Origin: a virus
Direction: 5' to 3' (one strand)
IMG/VR virus record: IMGVR_UViG_3300037102_000029
Coordinates: 1 to 64,000 of that record
Length of the DNA stretch: 64,000 bases
A program made the translations under genes and the position numbers. Under the pieces are notes generated by a model that saw nothing but the letters and a program-made list of their open reading frames with translations, was not told where the DNA came from and made no database searches. Shown here one piece after another: positions 22,307 to 57,363 of this stretch (position 1 is its first letter; each line of letters opens with the position of its first letter).

Positions 22307-23449
22307 CTACTTGGTTATTTCACTGCATACGCAGATCGGTAACGCTGAACTAACTGATGCCGCGTAACTAGCATTGCCTGCAAACGAAGCATAGTAGGTG
22401 CGAATCCCTGGCGACGTGAAGGACGTTTGGTACGTCAGCGTTGAATACGCTGCTTTGTCCTGATACGTTGCACCTCCAAGAGTGTGGTAAATCTTTATAG
22501 GCTCCGCAATAGGCGCAGCAGTCCCACTTTTTAATGTGGCAATAAACGTCGCCGGTTTATTGACCCCGTAACACGACTTGTCAGCGGTTATGGTAATCTG
22601 GGTCGCTTTCTTAGTCGGTGTAGGTGGTGTGGGGGTGGGTGTCGGCCCAAGCTGACTCTCCATCGCGATAGTCCAACTGTCGCTCGCGTATTGCCGGATG
22701 TACGGTCGCGGGATCAAACCGAAGCCGCCACTGAATTTGGCGTATCCTTTGCCCCATCCTGTCCCCCAAGAGTTGAGGGTGATGTAGTAGTCGGCGTCAG
22801 TAAAGCCAGTTACGCCAAACAACGCATTGCAGTGACCGCCGATTGATGCGCCGCTTGGCATATCAATGATCCCATCGCTGCCGACGTCTTCGTATTGCTG
22901 GTAGACTGGCATCCCGTAAACCACTGGAAGCTTCGTCACGCAGAGGCAGTTGTCTATGTTCGCAATCATCTGAGTTGTTGAGGTGCCGTCAAGCAAGTAG
23001 TAGCTCGTAGACTCGGCTTTCACTGCGTCGCTGACTGCTTTCGCTGGCGGTGCGGTATCGAACTGGCTTATATCATAAGCCCAATCAGTTTCAGGTGCTA
23101 CGCCATCCTGAACAGTTGCGTGAATACCATCTCTGATATTACAGCCATTATCTCCAGGATAATCGCCGCCAATAATCCTCGCATCGCGATAGACCAGTAG
23201 CCTGCAGCCTAGAACTGCCTCGATTCCTGCCTTAATCTGACACGCCTCAAAGGCTGACGTGGTTCCGTGTGCTACGCACGCGCCTAGTTGTCCTTGATTC
23301 TTGACTGTGCTGACTAAATTGGTTATGTCCGTTGGCACCAACGTTTCAGGTGCCATCAACTTCACGCGATCTTCGTATCTGTAATCTAAATGTGACGGCA
23401 TCTGAGGTTTCCACCCCAGGCCGTGACCTTTCTTAGTAACGGTTATCAT
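22307..23449 (-). CDS. Papain-like (C1) protease with C-terminal Ig-like domain, lysin candidate
   Basis: 380 residues. The catalytic set is visible: Q52 in N-Q-G-Q-L-G-A-C58, H206 in G-G-H-C-N-A-L, N226 in T-L-N-S-W-G-T-G-W-G. A Thr/Pro linker (about 275-285) leads to an Ig-like domain ending in L-P-I-C-V-C-S-E, shared with the gene at 26,260. No signal peptide. Could cleave host surface (S-layer) protein or cell-wall peptide at release; the lysis role is inferred from the neighbouring small membrane protein and glycosidase-like gene. Confidence 0.8.
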   Translation of the reverse strand: MITVTKKGHGLGWKPQMPSHLDYRYEDRVKLMAPETLVPTDITNLVSTVKNQGQLGACVAHGTTSAFEACQIKAGIEAVLGCRLLVYRDARIIGGDYPGDNGCNIRDGIHATVQDGVAPETDWAYDISQFDTAPPAKAVSDAVKAESTSYYLLDGTSTTQMIANIDNCLCVTKLPVVYGMPVYQQYEDVGSDGIIDMPSGASIGGHCNALFGVTGFTDADYYITLNSWGTGWGKGYAKFSGGFGLIPRPYIRQYASDSWTIAMESQLGPTPTPTPPTPTKKATQITITADKSCYGVNKPATFIATLKSGTAAPIAEPIKIYHTLGGATYQDKAAYSTLTYQTSFTSPGIRTYYASFAGNASYAASVSSALPICVCSEITK

Positions 23450-43285: not shown

Positions 43286-44077
43286 TTAGGCCTCCGATTT
43301 CTCAGCTTGCCAGTTTATAGTAGTCAGGCTCGCCTCAAGTGCTTCTTTGAGTGTAGACTTAGGAGCTTCTAAATGCTCGGATTCAACGCTGAAAGTCTCG
43401 CCAGCAGCTTTAGTTGCGATTAATGCTTCCATATCAGCTTTGAACGTGTCAGTGAACTTCGACATATCAAGTTCATCGACCGAACCCTGATCTATAATCA
43501 TCCTTGCGAGCTTCAGTTCATCCTCGGATACTTCCGGCTCAGTCACGGCTAGCTCTTCAATATCTCTAAGTTCATCGAGATAATTCAAAGAAGTTAGCAA
43601 TAGGCCTGACTTGTAAGCCTCAATCGCGCACGTATATTCTTTTTCGCGCATCGTGAACGTTCCAATAGCGATTTTACCACATTCGCGCAGCGCATTTCTC
43701 AATAGGAAAAACGCTTTGTTATCTTGCTTTTTGTCGACCCCCAAGAAATAATGCGAACCAAAATACAACGAGTCTATTTCAAACCTCGGAACAAACTCCT
43801 TAATCTTGATTGCGCTCGACTTTTCCGGTCGGATCATCTTAATCTCGTCAGGCGTAACGGTCACGATCTGACCGCCTTGCGTGACGCCTTTAACAATATC
43901 CTCTTTTGCTACTTCCTGATCGCAAACCTCGCACCATTTCTTTTGACGGATTCGACCGCCATCGGCTGAATGATGCATGTGCATTTCAAACTTCTTTGCT
44001 TCAGTGGCTGCATACAATTTAACCGGCACACTCACCAAACCGAAGCTTATCGTAGCACTTTTTATAGCTCTCGGCAT
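43286..44077 (-). CDS. ku: Ku-family DNA end-binding protein
   Basis: 263 residues, normal length for prokaryotic Ku. P-R-A-I-K-S-A-T-I-S-F-G-L-V-S-V-P-V-K-L-Y at the N-terminus, G-G-R-I-R-Q-K-K-W-C-E-V-C, E-D-I-V-K-G, A-L-R-E-C-G-K-I-A-I-G and D-E-L-K-L-A-R-M-I-I-D match the Ku ring core. AAAAGGAGATGATTCAAA precedes the ATG. Homodimeric Ku encircles DNA ends. No LigD-type ligase is in the window, so it may protect or circularise genome ends with host or unseen ligase. Confidence 0.9.
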   Translation of the reverse strand: MPRAIKSATISFGLVSVPVKLYAATEAKKFEMHMHHSADGGRIRQKKWCEVCDQEVAKEDIVKGVTQGGQIVTVTPDEIKMIRPEKSSAIKIKEFVPRFEIDSLYFGSHYFLGVDKKQDNKAFFLLRNALRECGKIAIGTFTMREKEYTCAIEAYKSGLLLTSLNYLDELRDIEELAVTEPEVSEDELKLARMIIDQGSVDELDMSKFTDTFKADMEALIATKAAGETFSVESEHLEAPKSTLKEALEASLTTINWQAEKSEA

Positions 44078-49699: not shown

Positions 49700-51178
49700 A
49701 TGGCAACAGCGAAAGGTCGGCGAATTAAATCGCCGTGGAAGAGAGATGAACGTGTAGATGGCGATATCGACCACATCGACCTTGACCTTGGCGATGACGA
49801 CATTCCCTTTCAACCCGAATCACACGATATCGAGGCTCTGAAGTTAGGCGCAGAACCTCCTGAATACGGCCCCGAGATCATTGGCCGTGAAGTAAGGCCT
49901 CGTGCTTTTCCCCAAAAGAGTTTTCTTCCATTTTTCTTAGAGAAGCGACGCTATCTAGTGGCCGAAGGCGGTGCAGGTGCTGGCAAGTCAGTCGCCGCGG
50001 CGCAGAAAGTCATAATGAAGTCGCTCAAGTATCCTAATTCAATGACGATCGTAATGCGAGCGTGGTCGCCACGGTTGCGCGTTACGGCTTACCGAATGCT
50101 CATTCAGATTTTGAATGAGAATCTGATCCCGTATCATCCCAACAACACCACTATGAAGATCACGTTCGAGAACGGATCAGTCATACAAGGAATGGCGATC
50201 GTGGATTCTCAAGGCGGTGAGGTTGCAGCCTCAATCAAGTCCCTTACCGATATCTCAGGGATGTGGATTGAGGAGCCGACAGAGCTTTCACTTGAAGAAT
50301 TTGAGATGATCCGGATGCGCCTTCGTGGCCGTGAACTTCCCGAAGGACAATCCCGACAACTTATCTTAACATTCAATCCTATCGACCGGAACCATTGGTT
50401 GCACGAACTGTTCTTTGACGCACAGGATCAACCATTGGAAGATGAAGACACAAGCGTTCGCCACTACACCTATAAAGACAACGAGTTTATTGATGAGGCT
50501 TACAAGAAATCCCTTGAGAATATCAAGGACAAGAACCGATTCAAGGTGTACACGCTCGGACTCTGGGGTGAACTCGGAGCGATGGTCTATGAGAACTGGG
50601 AGCCGTGGGGCTTCGAGCCGAGAGAGACGAAGTTCGATACGATCATCGGAGGTGCTGACTTCGGTTACTCGCACCCTTCAGCCTTCTGCGTGATGGGCAT
50701 TGACGATGAGAACCACGACCTCTACGTCATTGACGAGGTGTATCAGCGCGAGGAGCTTAACCGAGACTTCATTGATTCAATCAAGTCCAAATTGAACGCG
50801 AATGGCATAGCCGAAAACATCCCTATTTATTGTGACTCGGCGAATCCTGCGAGCATCAAAGAGATGCAGATTGGCGGATTAAACGCGCAGCCAGCGCAGA
50901 AGAATGTCCTCGACGGCATTGGCGCCGTTAGGCAATATAGTATCAAGATTCATACTCAATGCGACCACTTCCTTTCTGAAATCGGCGGCTACCAACGAGC
51001 GAAGGATCAGGCGGGTAGAGTTATGGAACTGCCGAACAAGAAAGCAGGCTTCGATGATCTTATGGACGCTATGAGATACGGCGTCTACACTTTTTCCCTG
51101 ACACGCCGGCTTTACAAAAGCATTATGCCAGGAGTCAGCTACGGGCGCGGACCCTACGAATACATTGACCAGTTGTGA
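49700..51178 (+). CDS. Terminase large subunit
   Basis: 492 residues. Walker A G-G-A-G-A-G-K-S (90-97), Walker B M-W-I-E-E (188-192), and nuclease motif G-G-A-D-F-G-Y-S-H-P-S-A-F (D320 acid) with later D-D-L-M-D-A-M-R-Y-G. It is the ATP-driven packaging motor and nuclease, similar to phage terminase_6/PBSX types. Confidence 0.95.
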   Translation: MATAKGRRIKSPWKRDERVDGDIDHIDLDLGDDDIPFQPESHDIEALKLGAEPPEYGPEIIGREVRPRAFPQKSFLPFFLEKRRYLVAEGGAGAGKSVAAAQKVIMKSLKYPNSMTIVMRAWSPRLRVTAYRMLIQILNENLIPYHPNNTTMKITFENGSVIQGMAIVDSQGGEVAASIKSLTDISGMWIEEPTELSLEEFEMIRMRLRGRELPEGQSRQLILTFNPIDRNHWLHELFFDAQDQPLEDEDTSVRHYTYKDNEFIDEAYKKSLENIKDKNRFKVYTLGLWGELGAMVYENWEPWGFEPRETKFDTIIGGADFGYSHPSAFCVMGIDDENHDLYVIDEVYQREELNRDFIDSIKSKLNANGIAENIPIYCDSANPASIKEMQIGGLNAQPAQKNVLDGIGAVRQYSIKIHTQCDHFLSEIGGYQRAKDQAGRVMELPNKKAGFDDLMDAMRYGVYTFSLTRRLYKSIMPGVSYGRGPYEYIDQL

Positions 51179-51184
51179 TTAACA

Positions 51185-52753
51185 ATGGCACCTACTAAAA
51201 AAGCTACAGGCAAGAAGACTCCGGCGAAACGCCGAGCGCCAGGAGCCGGACGGCCTGCCGGTTCAATGGCTGAGATCGGTAAGCCAGGACTGCGAGAAGC
51301 TTATGGGTTCATCTTAGAAGAGTGGCTTCCTAAGTTACAGAACCGCAAGCAACGGCTTCGCACCTATAAGACTATGATGGGGACCGACGCCACGGTTGCG
51401 GCTGTCGGCAACGCTACGAAGATGGCTATCCATCAGGTCGAGTTTTTCATACAACCTGCCGGAACGCTTAGCGGCGACAAGGCCTTCGCAGACTTTGCTA
51501 CTGATTGTATTTTCAATTCACTCGATATGTCGTGGCAGGAGAAGTTGAATGAGATCCTAACCTATCCTGATATGGGCTTCGGTTTGTTTGAGATGGTTTG
51601 GATGCGCCGCCCTGACGGCCACATAGGCTGGAAGAAGTGGGGATTCAGGCCACAAGAAACCGTTTACCAGTGGACATTCGACCCGACGACGCAGGAGCTC
51701 ACAGGCTTCAAACAGCAAGTGCTTATTCCTGCATCAGAATTTATCGCTATCCCGATAGAGAAGTGCATTCACTTCCGCCACAACAGCACCAAGAACAACC
51801 CTGAAGGTGAAAGTTGGTGGCGCGGTGTCTATATGGCTTGGTACGCGAAACACAAACTCGAGCTTATCGAGCTTATCGGCATTGAGCGAAACGTAGCGGG
51901 ACTGCCAGAAGTGCGAATCCCGTCCGAGAACTGGCTTTCTAAGAACAGAAAAGTGCTCAAGAAGTATCAGGACATTGCCGATAACGTTCGCAGAAATGAA
52001 GACGCTAACTTTGTTATCCCTTCAGATGTGTGGCCAGCAACCAGCGTCCCGATGTATGCGATAGGTCTTACCGGCGGCCAGCAACTTACCACACGTCAAA
52101 CAGGACTTCCTACAATCCAGCCTATCCAAAGATACCAGGCAGAGATCGCTCGAGGACTGCAGGCTGACTTTATGCTGCTTCCAACAGGCGGTCCAGGTTC
52201 CTACGCACTCTCGAGCAATAAATCGAGTTTCTTTGTTATGTTTATCGAATCAATCTGCGATGCTATCTGCGAAACAATAAACAAGCAGGCGATGACGCAG
52301 TTGGCCGAATACAACGACTTCGGCGCAGTTTCAGGCATTCCGAAACTGGTTCACGGCAACGTCGCTAAGACTGAGGTTGATGACCTCGGCAAGTTGATGG
52401 CGAACCTCGTCAAGGCGAGCGCAGCGATTTTCCCCAACGACGACCTCTTGAATGCAATACTCGACGAGGCGGGACTGCCACACGTGGACACAACTGCGAA
52501 CAACGAGATTGCCAACCACATTAAAGAAGCGATGGCAGCAGCAGCAGCAGCCACACCACAGCAGGCAGCGTGGGTAGAAGGGCCGACAACTAACGAGACG
52601 TCAGCGGACCTCGCAGGCACAACAGTCACAGCGGCAGAACCACAGGCACGCGCCGCTGCAGCGCCTCCGCCGTTGGCCAAGCCGACGCAGGCGCCTACTA
52701 AACCTAAACCCAAAAAGAAGGTAACAGCACGAACTAAGACGAGGAGGGCATAA
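51185..52753 (+). CDS. Portal protein
   Basis: 522 residues. P-D-M-G-F-G-L-F-E-M-V-W, G-F-R-P-Q-E-T-V-Y-Q-W, R-G-V-Y-M-A-W-Y-A-K-H-K and the A/P-rich C-terminus are as in gp29-like (DUF935-type) portals. Twelve copies form the ring through which DNA enters. Basic N-terminal 30 residues and Ala/Pro/Lys-rich tail (440-522) are likely disordered. Follows terminase by six bases. Confidence 0.85.
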   Translation: MAPTKKATGKKTPAKRRAPGAGRPAGSMAEIGKPGLREAYGFILEEWLPKLQNRKQRLRTYKTMMGTDATVAAVGNATKMAIHQVEFFIQPAGTLSGDKAFADFATDCIFNSLDMSWQEKLNEILTYPDMGFGLFEMVWMRRPDGHIGWKKWGFRPQETVYQWTFDPTTQELTGFKQQVLIPASEFIAIPIEKCIHFRHNSTKNNPEGESWWRGVYMAWYAKHKLELIELIGIERNVAGLPEVRIPSENWLSKNRKVLKKYQDIADNVRRNEDANFVIPSDVWPATSVPMYAIGLTGGQQLTTRQTGLPTIQPIQRYQAEIARGLQADFMLLPTGGPGSYALSSNKSSFFVMFIESICDAICETINKQAMTQLAEYNDFGAVSGIPKLVHGNVAKTEVDDLGKLMANLVKASAAIFPNDDLLNAILDEAGLPHVDTTANNEIANHIKEAMAAAAAATPQQAAWVEGPTTNETSADLAGTTVTAAEPQARAAAAPPPLAKPTQAPTKPKPKKKVTARTKTRRA

Positions 52754-52756
52754 GAT

Positions 52757-54808
52757 ATGTCGATTTCAGAACAAGAATTAGAGAAGGGCGCCCTGGATCA
52801 ATCGCTCATTGCTTCAGTGAGCGTCACACCAGCCGTCCTCGGTAAGTTTTCGGACGCACAACTCGCTAAGGCGTGGGGAGCCTATAACGAATGGTTCGGC
52901 GACGCAATCCGAATGGATCAGCCAGCGCACGCATTCGTCACGCCAGGCGAGAACATTTACAACGAAATGAAAAAGCGTGGCTTGCGGATCAGCAACCGTA
53001 TGCCGCTTTCTCCAATGTTCACCAATCCAAAAGAGGTGAATCTGCCGTTAGCCAAAGCAGGTATGCCAATGGCCTCGGCAGGAACTACGTGGGATGAGGG
53101 TGCCGCAAGAGCCGCACTTCGGAAATGGGCTACAAAACCAGATGGAACAGTTGATACGGCCAAGTACGGACAGGGCTTCTTGTTTCACGGCACCCCGTCA
53201 ACTTTACTGACGTCATACAAATTCCCCATAGCGACAGTTATAAACGGGACACTTACTGCGGTGCCGAATGCGATTCGAGCGGCAAAAGGGCGCTTGCTTG
53301 GAAGCAGTATTCCTGCCGCTGCTAAAGCTCGAATCGCCTCAGTCCTGGCAGGTTATTCAAAGCGGCTCGGCTGGAACGATATGCACAAGAGCGCCGTGGA
53401 ACCGCAAATACCAGTCCTAAAAGAAGGACAGCCACTCATAGCATTCGTTGAAGGTTCGCCGGATGAGACTGAGCTAAAACGCGGCAAACCAATGGTAGGC
53501 GTCGCGGGAGCGATGTTCGATACGAATTACCTCGCGCCGCTAGGATTGAAGCGGTCTGACGTAGCAATCCTGCATCAGGTTCCGGATATGCTGAGGGGCA
53601 AAGACGGCCACGCTCGCGGACCTAAACCTAATGAAGTCCTTGAATGGCAAGACAACCTCGCACAAGAACTTGACAACCTTGATCCGGACCTCACGATAGC
53701 GCTCGGCCAGGGCGTAGGCGACACTATCATGGCAGACTTTGTGCTGCCACATCCGAAAGTCCTCACGAAGATGGCTAAGTCTGGCTCTGTAAACCTCGCC
53801 GCTTCGGAGCTCGTTCGTAAGATTAAGGTAATAAAAGGAGTTTTAGCTGGTGGGATCGAGCCTCAGTTCGTGGCAATCGACATGGCGAAAGCCGCAGCGT
53901 TACCACTAGCGCACGAAGATATTGGCTGGAACGAAGGACAGGCACGCAAAACACTCAAAGCGTGGGCTAAGAAGCCTGACGGAACGATTGACACGGGCAA
54001 ATATGGGCGAGCCTTCCTATATGATCCAGGGACCGGAAAAACAAGCGACATGAAATTCCCGATCGCTACGGTCATTGATGGTGTATTATTTGCTATTCCT
54101 GACGCCATTCGCGCAGCGAAAGAAAGGTTTGATCAGGCGCAGGGAATACCGGCTGCAGACAAAGCAAAGATAGCCGGACAATTAGCTGCTTACTCGAAGA
54201 AATTGGGCTGGCCGACCGGAACATCCGGTGATACAAATAGCACAAGTTCAAATATGAGTAAGTCCGCTACGTTATCTGATAACGAGCATCAATTCGGGCT
54301 GTTTATGGCCGATGCCCCTGACAAAAGGAACGTGGTGCAAGGGGTTGTTTATGCGCCGAACCAGCTGGATGACCAAAACCATTGGGCGCCCCCGGAAGTT
54401 TTGACAGACGCGGCACATTGGTATATGGAGCATTCGCAGCTGGCGGATACCGAGCACCAGAAACTGGCCGACGCACGAGTTGTTGAGAGTTACATCACGA
54501 GCCAACCTGAAAAGCTTGGAGATCGTGACATACCTGTTGGCAGTTGGCGTGTAGCACACAGCGTTTCAGACGACCTGAAAAAGGAAATCGACGCTGGAAC
54601 CTACAAGGGTCAGAGCATGTTCGGGAGATTAGAAGGCCTCTACGGCGAAGCTCCGCCTGGATATATGGCGAAGAACACCGGAGATGTCGATACGATCCTG
54701 AAACTGACAAAGATACGACCGGCAACGGTCGGGTTCGTTGCACAAGCAGCGAACAAAATGCACACGATAGTAGCGACCTGTGAAGGCGCAGACTGCCCAT
54801 TGAATTAA
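52757..54808 (+). CDS. Capsid maturation protease fused to UDG-like domain
   Basis: 683 residues. Two copies of a domain with W-x-E-G-x-A-R-x-x-L...K-P-D-G-T...K-Y-G and Y-S-K-x-L-G-W (about 110-215 and 389-487, DUF6582-like) flank residues 221-345, which look like a family 4/5 uracil-DNA glycosylase: V-E-G-S-P-D-E, G-K-P-M-V-G-V-A-G-A-M-F-D, P-D-L-T-I-A-L-G, L-P-H-P. Residues 505-660 match the XkdF-like serine protease (V-V-E-S-Y-I-T-S, P-V-G-S-W-R-V-A-H). Position between portal and scaffold fits the protease. Confidence 0.75.
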   Translation: MSISEQELEKGALDQSLIASVSVTPAVLGKFSDAQLAKAWGAYNEWFGDAIRMDQPAHAFVTPGENIYNEMKKRGLRISNRMPLSPMFTNPKEVNLPLAKAGMPMASAGTTWDEGAARAALRKWATKPDGTVDTAKYGQGFLFHGTPSTLLTSYKFPIATVINGTLTAVPNAIRAAKGRLLGSSIPAAAKARIASVLAGYSKRLGWNDMHKSAVEPQIPVLKEGQPLIAFVEGSPDETELKRGKPMVGVAGAMFDTNYLAPLGLKRSDVAILHQVPDMLRGKDGHARGPKPNEVLEWQDNLAQELDNLDPDLTIALGQGVGDTIMADFVLPHPKVLTKMAKSGSVNLAASELVRKIKVIKGVLAGGIEPQFVAIDMAKAAALPLAHEDIGWNEGQARKTLKAWAKKPDGTIDTGKYGRAFLYDPGTGKTSDMKFPIATVIDGVLFAIPDAIRAAKERFDQAQGIPAADKAKIAGQLAAYSKKLGWPTGTSGDTNSTSSNMSKSATLSDNEHQFGLFMADAPDKRNVVQGVVYAPNQLDDQNHWAPPEVLTDAAHWYMEHSQLADTEHQKLADARVVESYITSQPEKLGDRDIPVGSWRVAHSVSDDLKKEIDAGTYKGQSMFGRLEGLYGEAPPGYMAKNTGDVDTILKLTKIRPATVGFVAQAANKMHTIVATCEGADCPLN

Positions 54809-54824
54809 AAAATAGGAGAACATC

Positions 54825-55556
54825 ATGGAAGACAATTTCATGGAGACTCTTCCAGAGTTGGACGCAACAGTTGACGCAAAGCTTACTGAACTCTTTGAAA
54901 AAGAAGGGACGAGTGAGCAGGTCCAGGAATATACACGCCTCGGCGTGCGTTCACTGGCACTTGGCGCTGACGAATTAAAGGGCGTCGTAGGCTCGCTGCC
55001 TCAACTACTTGGCGGCGAAAAACCTGCAGAGACTCCGGAAGTAAAGACAGGGATGGCAAAGAGCGGAAGCGAACTGCCTGATCTGGCAAACGTCCCGAAG
55101 GAAGCGAAGCCTTACGTCGAAATGCTTCTCAAAAAGAGCGCAGAGAATGAGAAGATCGCTAAAGAGGCGATGGCGAAGGCCGCTAAATACGAAGAAGAAA
55201 GACAAGTCGAAGTCTTCGGAAACAAGGCGAAGGATTTTGAGAACCTTGCGATTCCGGACCTCGCCAACATCCTGCGCGAAGTCGCGACCAAAGCGCCAGA
55301 CGTCTACAAAGGTCTGGAAGACGGTCTTACCGGCACAAGCAAGCTGATGGCGAAGAGCATGACAGCAAGCAAGTCTTTCGAGGAACTTGGCAAAGGCTAC
55401 ACTCCTGACTCGCCGCAAGGCAAAGTTGATGCTATCGTAAAGCAAGCAATGGAGAAAGCCGGCGGCAAGGTCAAGAAAACAGCTCTGCTTCGTGAAGCCT
55501 ACAATACTTCAGGCGCTTACGAAGACGAGATTGAGACGCGAAGGGGTCGAGCGTAA
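54825..55556 (+). CDS. Scaffold protein
   Basis: 243 residues, AATAGGAGAACATC upstream. Acidic N-terminus, predicted coiled coil about 105-140 (L-L-K-K-S-A-E-N-E-K-I-A-K-E-A-M), helical C-terminus. Lies between protease and capsid genes, where scaffolds are found. Overlaps the next ATG. Confidence 0.75.
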   Translation: MEDNFMETLPELDATVDAKLTELFEKEGTSEQVQEYTRLGVRSLALGADELKGVVGSLPQLLGGEKPAETPEVKTGMAKSGSELPDLANVPKEAKPYVEMLLKKSAENEKIAKEAMAKAAKYEEERQVEVFGNKAKDFENLAIPDLANILREVATKAPDVYKGLEDGLTGTSKLMAKSMTASKSFEELGKGYTPDSPQGKVDAIVKQAMEKAGGKVKKTALLREAYNTSGAYEDEIETRRGRA

Positions 55557-56364: not shown

Positions 56365-57363
56365 ATGGAACCAACCTATGACATGATGCACATCAGCAGG
56401 GCGCTCACTAATTACAGTGAGGAATACACCCAAGCCGATGATGCGTTCGTAGCAAGTTTAGTGTGTCCCAACCTCCCCGTCGAGGACAAAGCAGGTCAGT
56501 ATTGGAAGTACAACCAAGAAGACTTCATGAGGGATGAGGTTCAGGAACGCGCTGCAGGGACTCCATCGGTCGCGACAGAATACGGCCTAACCAAAGGCAC
56601 GTATGCAGTCAAGCGATGGGCCTTGAAGAAAATCCTCACAGACGAGGACTTTAAGATCGCGGACTCAATCTTCGATCTACACGCCGACGCGACGGAACTG
56701 TTGACCGACAAGATGCTTCTCAAAAGAGAAAGTGACCTTATCGCAACCGCGATGACCGCAAACTCTTGGGATTCTGGCAACCAGTTTACCGGAGAAGCGC
56801 AGACGGCAAACCCGACCGGGGTATCCGGAGGTTCAACGTTCTGCTACTGGTCTGACCGGACCAACAGCTCCCCTGTTGACGACATTCTGAACGCAGCGAC
56901 GGACCAGCAAGAACTTACCGGCAAGTATCCGAACACACTGATTATTGGGCCTCGGGTTTTCTTAGCATTAAAGATGCACCCCGATATTAAAGACCAATAC
57001 CAGTATGTCAGTGCCGACTCGATCACGGTCGAGATGCTCGCACGTGTTCTCGAAATCGACAACATCTACGTACCGAAGGTAGTCACCAACACCGCAAAGC
57101 GTGGACAGACCCCCGTATTCAAGTTTAGTTACGGGAAAGACGCGCTTCTGTGCTACACAGCACCCAACATTGGGCCTAAGACAGCGACCTCAATGGTCAC
57201 GCTGACTTGGAGCAATGCGCCGGGGGCTGCGGCTGGCGGTCAGGCTATCTCGGAATGGGTCGACCCCGAGACGAAGACAAACAAACTAGAGATCGAAGCT
57301 TTCTGGGCCTCAAAGGTAGTCGCTACTCGCATGGGCAGCTACTTCACCGGCGCAGTGGCTTAA
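56365..57363 (+). CDS. Major capsid protein, HK97 fold
   Basis: 332 residues, ATAAGGAGGTGAAGAAAA upstream. Early F-V-A-S-L-V-C-P-N-L-P-V, E-Y-G-L-T-K-G-T-Y-A-V-K, a P-domain-like helix A-D-A-T-E-L-L-T-D-K-M-L-L-K-R, then P-N-T-L-I-I-G-P-R-V-F-L-A-L and a C-terminal R-M-G-S-Y-F. No long delta domain at the N-terminus, consistent with a separate scaffold. Confidence 0.85.
   Translation: MEPTYDMMHISRALTNYSEEYTQADDAFVASLVCPNLPVEDKAGQYWKYNQEDFMRDEVQERAAGTPSVATEYGLTKGTYAVKRWALKKILTDEDFKIADSIFDLHADATELLTDKMLLKRESDLIATAMTANSWDSGNQFTGEAQTANPTGVSGGSTFCYWSDRTNSSPVDDILNAATDQQELTGKYPNTLIIGPRVFLALKMHPDIKDQYQYVSADSITVEMLARVLEIDNIYVPKVVTNTAKRGQTPVFKFSYGKDALLCYTAPNIGPKTATSMVTLTWSNAPGAAAGGQAISEWVDPETKTNKLEIEAFWASKVVATRMGSYFTGAVA

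Follow-up and report, generated by a model that had tools for sequence, protein, structure and literature searches.

A fusion gene between portal and scaffold

The window, by which we mean the whole 64,000-nucleotide stretch analysed here (positions 1 to 64,000 of the IMG/VR virus record IMGVR_UViG_3300037102_000029, a 67.9-kb viral contig), carries on its plus strand at 52757..54808 a single open reading frame with an ATG start and no internal stop. The encoded 683-residue protein, P0001, consists of an N-terminal helical region, a first W..KPDGT domain, a domain resembling uracil-DNA glycosylases (UDGs), a second W..KPDGT domain, and an XkdF protease. The opposite strand of the same interval held nothing notable. 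Full-length open copies of P0001 are present in six other viral contigs, where they are 100% or, in two of them, 93-95% identical, one further copy is truncated, and the architecture is kept in L002-L007. Upstream lie the Terminase_3 large subunit (TerL, 49700-51178) and then, directly before the fusion, a Mu-type portal gene (51185..52753, plus strand; PF06074, E 2.4e-26). Directly downstream is a gene for a 243-residue protein that appears scaffold-like from its position and composition (54825..55556, plus strand), and further on a probable, capsid-E-like major capsid protein (56365..57363, plus strand), whose match to PF03864 (E 5.5e-4, 19.5 bits) is below the cut-off of 22.9. Profile searches thus place P0001 within the gene order portal, protease, capsid, with the capsid match weak, in agreement with its earlier assignment to a head operon. 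In L019, L059, L070, and L073, the genes around the fusion, assigned from their position and resemblance in sequence, run portal, fusion, scaffold-like, decoration-like, capsid as far as each contig shows them. Elsewhere in the window, on the strand opposite the structural genes (22307-23449, minus strand), we note a cysteine peptidase of the papain type that also has a weak match to bacterial Ig-like domains.

The C-terminal part of P0001, residues 500-683 (54254..54805, plus strand), is an XkdF-type (Peptidase_S78_2) capsid maturation protease, as had been proposed before. The Pfam model PF14550 matches residues 521-624 with E 9e-16 and 58.4 bits against a cut-off of 24, and the PHROG "head maturation protease" family matches with E 1e-19. 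Sequence comparison shows His567 and Ser620 to be invariant, which makes them candidate catalytic residues; no solved structure similar to the domain by sequence was found. We also note that the XkdF proteases of Lactococcus phages 50901, 62501, and others (PHROG 1530) are labelled "DNA methyltransferase", which is probably a propagated misannotation.

Residues 1-105 (52757..53071, plus strand) have no Pfam match, and a stretch like this region (..AQAWxxxNEW..) was recognised by eye in L019, L046, L070, and L073. The two W..KPDGT domains at residues 106-208 (53072..53380, plus strand) and 385-487 (53909..54217, plus strand) are 61% identical over 97 columns (E 4e-37), consistent with the two repeats described in the earlier note as flanking the UDG-like segment. 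The second copy is missing from L046, L070, and L073, and no Pfam model covers the domain. The first copy is 34% identical to a stand-alone 125-residue protein of Moorella phage MTATph1 (L044:7977-8354), whose gene lies near a Holliday junction resolvase gene, and in Saccharomonospora phage PIS 136 the W..KPDGT domain comes after a MuF domain.

A UDG-superfamily domain with an altered active site

Between the repeats, PF03167, AlphaFold, Foldseek, and hhalign identify a UDG-like domain at residues 216-363 (53402..53845, plus strand), and the UDG landmarks reported for it earlier are in place (EGSPD at 232, KPMVG at 244, PHPK at 331). PF03167 matches residues 228-340 with 29.3 bits in the whole protein and 32.8 bits in the domain alone (Pfam cut-off 24.3), and the corresponding domain of L059 reaches 52 bits. 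The NCBIfam models for family-4 UDG, archaeal UDG, and UdgX match P0001 at E 1e-9 to 5e-7, with scores far below their own cut-offs (38.6 bits vs 125.3 for the family-4 subfamily). A profile of three sequences of the domain matches the Sulfolobus UDG in the PDB with E 1.7e-7, and a nine-member profile of the fusions matches PDB UDGs with E 1.5e-11. When compared by hhalign with free phage UDGs, the domain aligns across 136 columns with E 7.6e-19, and an unrelated profile, used as a negative control, gave a probability of 0.1%. AlphaFold, given an alignment with 20 relatives that included free UDGs, predicts the domain with a pLDDT of 90.1 and a pTM of 0.85, and the best 36 PDB matches of this model in Foldseek are all family-4 UDG/UdgX (prob 1.00, TMq about 0.7 to UdgX/Tth UDG). 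The predicted fold is that of a UDG and not an unrelated one. With only the five fusion sequences, the pLDDT was 44 and the model unusable; because the successful alignment held free UDGs, the model supports the homology and is not independent of it.

The segment is a genuine member of the UDG superfamily, nearest to family 4/UdgX. The earlier assignment to "UDG family 4/5" stands as regards the superfamily and family 4; family 5 was dropped. We ruled out chance similarity or an assembly artefact, an explanation of negligible probability for which we found no supporting point, because the same fusion recurs in independent contigs of several lineages and because of the PDB and hhalign profile statistics given above. 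When eight fused domains were placed in a tree with 16 free phage domains, the fused ones formed one group apart from the free UDGs, with support of 100/100.

The active site was compared in an alignment of five fusion proteins with 16 free phage UDGs, with residue roles taken from the literature (PMC10359453, PMC10776899). In P0001, motif 1 reads EGSPD (53450..53464, plus strand) in place of GE(A/G)PG; Gly occupies the catalytic-Glu position in all five fusions, compared with Glu in 16/16 free phage UDGs, and the last Gly of the motif is Asp in the aligned fusions. None of the four Fe-S cysteines is left in any of the five, and all four are present in the 16 free UDGs. The uracil-stacking Phe is Met in 5/5, the equivalent of Tth N89 is Ala or Val, and at the position of the uracil-recognising Asn the three fusions of the window type have His and the other two (L019, L059) Asn. 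The stretch from strand 3 to motif 2 measures 14-16 residues in the fusions vs 26-53 in free phage UDGs. The hallmarks of UdgX are likewise lacking in the fusions, which have xGSPD for GEQPG and no KRRIH-type loop with the cross-linking His109. What is retained is the His-Pro of motif 2 (LPHPK, 53750..53755, plus strand), which together with the preceding LP is unchanged across the nine aligned fusion proteins, including two that are otherwise strongly decayed, and the SP of motif 1, which is also invariant in the nine.

Judged by these residues, the domain is not a canonical UDG, and the glycosylase catalysis that the earlier note had raised as an inference is not supported for a domain lacking the motif-1 Glu, the stacking Phe, the N89 equivalent, and the Fe-S cysteines, and with His for the recognising Asn in the window type. 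We consider it improbable that virions carry the domain as a working DNA glycosylase that removes uracil or some other base and so repairs or polices DNA. Such an enzyme would suit the UDG fold, the His-Pro kept throughout, and the Asn kept in L019 and L059, and the ligase, phosphoesterase, and nucleotidyltransferase that accompany the domain in L019 (see below) would complete a base-excision set, but the substitutions in motif 1, at the stacking Phe, and at N89, the absent cluster, and the shortened loop before motif 2 all argue against it, as do published UdgX mutants: E52A is weaker by one to two orders of magnitude, and no activity is left in E52A-H109A (PMC10776899). The invariance of LPHP in nine fusion proteins, despite the decay of other motifs, suggests that the pocket is still selected, and because the catalytic set is lost, binding is likelier than excision. 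We read the UDG-like part as most likely a DNA- or base-binding module.

Comparison of the window with L006 points to exchange by recombination between close phages of a stretch comprising residues about 198-372 (53348..53872, plus strand), which differs at 8-15 positions per 60 nt vs 0-6 per 60 nt in the flanks. The dS of this pair is 1.19 in the UDG-like part and about 0.07-0.12 elsewhere. In L007, the second W..KPDGT copy and linker have been exchanged separately. From the boundaries of these swaps, it follows that the domain boundaries of the protein are recombination boundaries too. The omega for the window and L006 is 0.058 in the UDG-like domain and 0.207 in the protease, and across comparisons the values are 0.06-0.08 for the UDG-like and 0.15-0.28 for the XkdF domain. 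The UDG-like domain is under strong purifying selection and is kept functional. A captured UDG that persists as a functionless spacer is therefore very improbable: the loss of the catalytic motifs would suit such a relic, and the degenerate copy in L077 and the ligase remnant in L059 show that modules do decay, but an omega of about 0.06, with dS near saturation, is among the strongest constraints in the protein, and LPHP and the SP of motif 1 do not vary in nine proteins. Since both its pocket motif and its sequence are conserved, the domain has some role.

Other modules fused to the same protease

The relatives were gathered with UDG-like and XkdF queries, which biases the frequency of the UDG-like domain upwards. 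In the shorter forms, L046 (576 residues), L070/L071 (571 residues), and L073 (569 residues), one W..KPDGT copy is followed by the UDG-like domain and the protease. L059/L060 (578 residues) have a different N-terminus and a stretch resembling a ligase remnant before the UDG-like domain and protease; the remnant reads GETQSDGFR vs GEVKYDGFR in L019, and its catalytic Lys is gone. L019 (1252 residues) contains, in order, a nucleotidyltransferase-like stretch, an ATP-dependent ligase, an OB-like stretch, the UDG-like domain, a phosphoesterase, and the protease, with profile matches for the ligase (PF01068, E 1.6e-24), UDG (E 3e-10), and XkdF (E 1e-22). The nearest model to its ligase is the NHEJ ligase TIGR02779 (E 2e-21), and its nucleotidyltransferase-like stretch, GSSVTGHQPNDLDILF, was assigned by motif and by alignment with the ANMV-1 copy (weak PF01909 match). 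L077 (1059 residues) has a ligase, a strongly decayed UDG-like domain, and the protease; L078 (1021 residues) has a decayed ligase, a shortened UDG-like domain, a phosphoesterase, and the protease; and L079 (1050 residues) has a nucleotidyltransferase-like stretch, a methyltransferase, a ligase, a phosphoesterase, and the protease, without a UDG-like domain. The extra domain of L019, L078, and L079 is, by profile comparison, a homologue of the LigD 3'-phosphoesterase: a six-sequence profile finds PDB 3p4h (2.2e-5) and 3p43 (6e-4), with 3n9b and 2lj6 weaker. Against Pfam LigD_N the copies of L078 and L079 score 14.5-16.1 bits, below the cut-off of 31.1, and that of L019 taken alone has no Pfam match. 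In L079:1225-4377, L080:3373-4474, and L082:8614-10074, the nucleotidyltransferase-like stretch is followed by a SAM methyltransferase-like domain, which lies before the ligase where the latter is visible; the domain was recognised by Pfam matches in L079 and L080 and by eye in L082. Scans of GTDB genomes for the UDG-like and XkdF parts returned no relative and hence no prophage host, and 50,697 annotated phages contained no relative of the UDG-like domain at E 1e-5.

These architectures bear on the possibility that the UDG-like domain is a structural or control part, which would sense packaged DNA and time proteolysis, or anchor the protease to DNA or the portal, and be degraded later. Its place immediately beside the protease in L046, L059, L070, and L073, which are the shortest forms, its occurrence in nearly all members recovered, and the loss of its catalytic residues would all be expected of such a part. 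We nevertheless regard this as rather unlikely. L079 keeps the protease and other cargo without a UDG-like domain, which makes that domain dispensable for the protease; the second repeat in the window, or the phosphoesterase in L019, separates the two; the UDG-like domain has been swapped as a separate cassette; and its frequency is inflated by the choice of queries.

The window also encodes a full-length bacterial-type Ku (43286-44077, minus strand; TIGR02772, 240.7 bits), which is present in the near copies G001 and G003 as well. No DNA ligase match was found in the window's own virus record, and a search for Ku in the other fusion contigs, which are incomplete, found none. Among the annotated phages, nearly every match to this Ku comes from a mycobacteriophage, at about 36% identity, and the Ku relatives compared indicate no host. 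A link between Ku and the ligase fusion is a suggestion.

A proposed role for the cassette and comparison with known systems

To the explanation that we favor we would give about an even chance: P0001 would be a polyprotein in which DNA-repair or DNA-end cargo is anchored to a capsid maturation protease by way of an N-terminal DNA-handling cassette, and we infer its packaging, cleavage, DNA binding, and timing. The XkdF protease would take its place in the prohead between the portal and the scaffold and would carry the N-terminal domains in with it. As the protease matures the head, these domains would probably be cut free, to stay with the packaged DNA and be delivered together with it. The likely job of the whole cassette would be to repair, heal, or join viral genome DNA around packaging or on entry, because the cassette of the sister viruses includes a nucleotidyltransferase, an ATP-dependent ligase, and a LigD-type 3'-phosphoesterase. 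A DNA-directed role is likely for the UDG-like domain too, since in the relatives its neighbours act on DNA (ligase, 3'-end healing, nucleotidyltransferase). For the window's virus, a repair role rests on the relatives, as its own record holds no ligase. The shared plan may be described as cargo plus XkdF, in which modules vary, swap, decay, and are replaced while the protease remains. Repair cargo on a capsid protease fits the ligase, nucleotidyltransferase, and phosphoesterase of the relatives better than it fitted the UDG-like domain alone. Counted against it are the frequent loss of modules, as with the decayed UDG-like domain of L077 and the ligase remnant of L059, and the position of the UDG-like domain beside the protease in the majority of forms, an arrangement that would also suit a structural or regulatory part.

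A broader form of the cargo reading, which we put forward tentatively and with less than even confidence, is that a family of tailed viruses makes its protease as a polyprotein with a swappable repair kit that the same protease frees, that each virion carries, and that is used at packaging or entry. In this joint proposal, the kit would comprise the nucleotidyltransferase, the ligase, the LigD-type phosphoesterase, the UDG-like domain as a base or damage sensor, and the methyltransferase, and would serve both break and base repair.

Capsid proteases are known to act on scaffold and capsid proteins. If such a protease is also the carrier of ligase, phosphoesterase, nucleotidyltransferase, and UDG-like modules, the maturation of the capsid and the repair of DNA would be linked, and repair by virion-borne enzymes could be tested directly; the sequences suggest virion-loaded DNA-repair parts in these viruses. 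Such a protein would also show a branch of the UDG superfamily without Fe-S cluster and catalytic acid that is still strongly selected, a route to new base- or DNA-binding function. The cassette layout provides a search handle for packaged enzymes, namely, anything encoded between the portal gene and the XkdF domain. The parts belong to known superfamilies, and we did not find their combination elsewhere: the open literature, to which the search was confined, yielded no description of a head protease joined to a UDG or a ligase, and the combination is absent among the 50,697 annotated phages.

Several known systems share features with the fusion. Multidomain phage proteins that include a peptidase domain and enter the virion have precedents in DdrB of P1, which is processed before packaging, and in the virion RNA polymerase of N4, which is packaged unprocessed (PMC5512222). 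The polyvalent proteins of phages and conjugative elements described there are large and multidomain, are encoded beside virion genes, combine peptidases with DNA-acting enzymes, and are packaged and delivered, as known for some and predicted for others, whereas we infer packaging for P0001. The P0001 family likewise combines a peptidase with DNA-acting domains beside virion genes, a DNA-acting role that homology would predict for P0001 itself. A text search of PMC5512222 returned no mention of XkdF, and the passages found contain no comparable UDG or DNA-ligase fusion.

Family 4 UDGs and UdgX (PF03167; TIGR00758, NF040953, TIGR03914) share with the UDG-like domain an alpha/beta/alpha fold with a common order of strands and helices, the GxPxVGxAG segment, and the motif-2 His-Pro; the UDG-like domain differs in lacking the Fe-S cysteines, in its xGSPD motif 1, in Met for the stacking Phe, in a shorter loop before motif 2, and in being fused to a capsid protease. 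The UDG fold is also a fused module in the N-terminal domains of phage family-A DNA polymerases (for example, PDB 9qhs; L023, L026, L030), but those aligned retain GEAPG, the Fe-S cysteines, Phe, and Asn and form a tree group separate from the capsid-protease fusions. The nucleotidyltransferase, ligase, and phosphoesterase modules of L019, L078 (where the ligase is decayed), and L079 recur in AJP62006 of ANMV-1 virus (L049:3200-5800), which, unlike L019, has no UDG or XkdF match. We note that AJP62006, whose annotation reads "ATP-dependent DNA ligase", has a nucleotidyltransferase-ligase-OB-phosphoesterase-like makeup and shares homology with the cargo of L019, and that a viral protein of 1503 residues (L084:7072-11583) joins a metallo-beta-lactamase fold, a nucleotidyltransferase-like stretch, a ligase, and two phosphoesterase-like stretches, with no XkdF match. 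The bacterial and archaeal LigD/NHEJ ligase-phosphoesterase set is a further system close to these relatives, but LigD proteins are not capsid proteases. Finally, the XkdF proteases of PBSX, Lactococcus 28201 (gp33), Methanothermobacter psiM100 (ORF12), and a Halorubrum tailed virus have the same protease domain and likewise sit between portal and capsid genes; the annotated XkdF proteases that we inspected are about 255-540 residues long and carry no identified repair domain, whereas the protease of P0001 is preceded by ∼500 residues of cargo.
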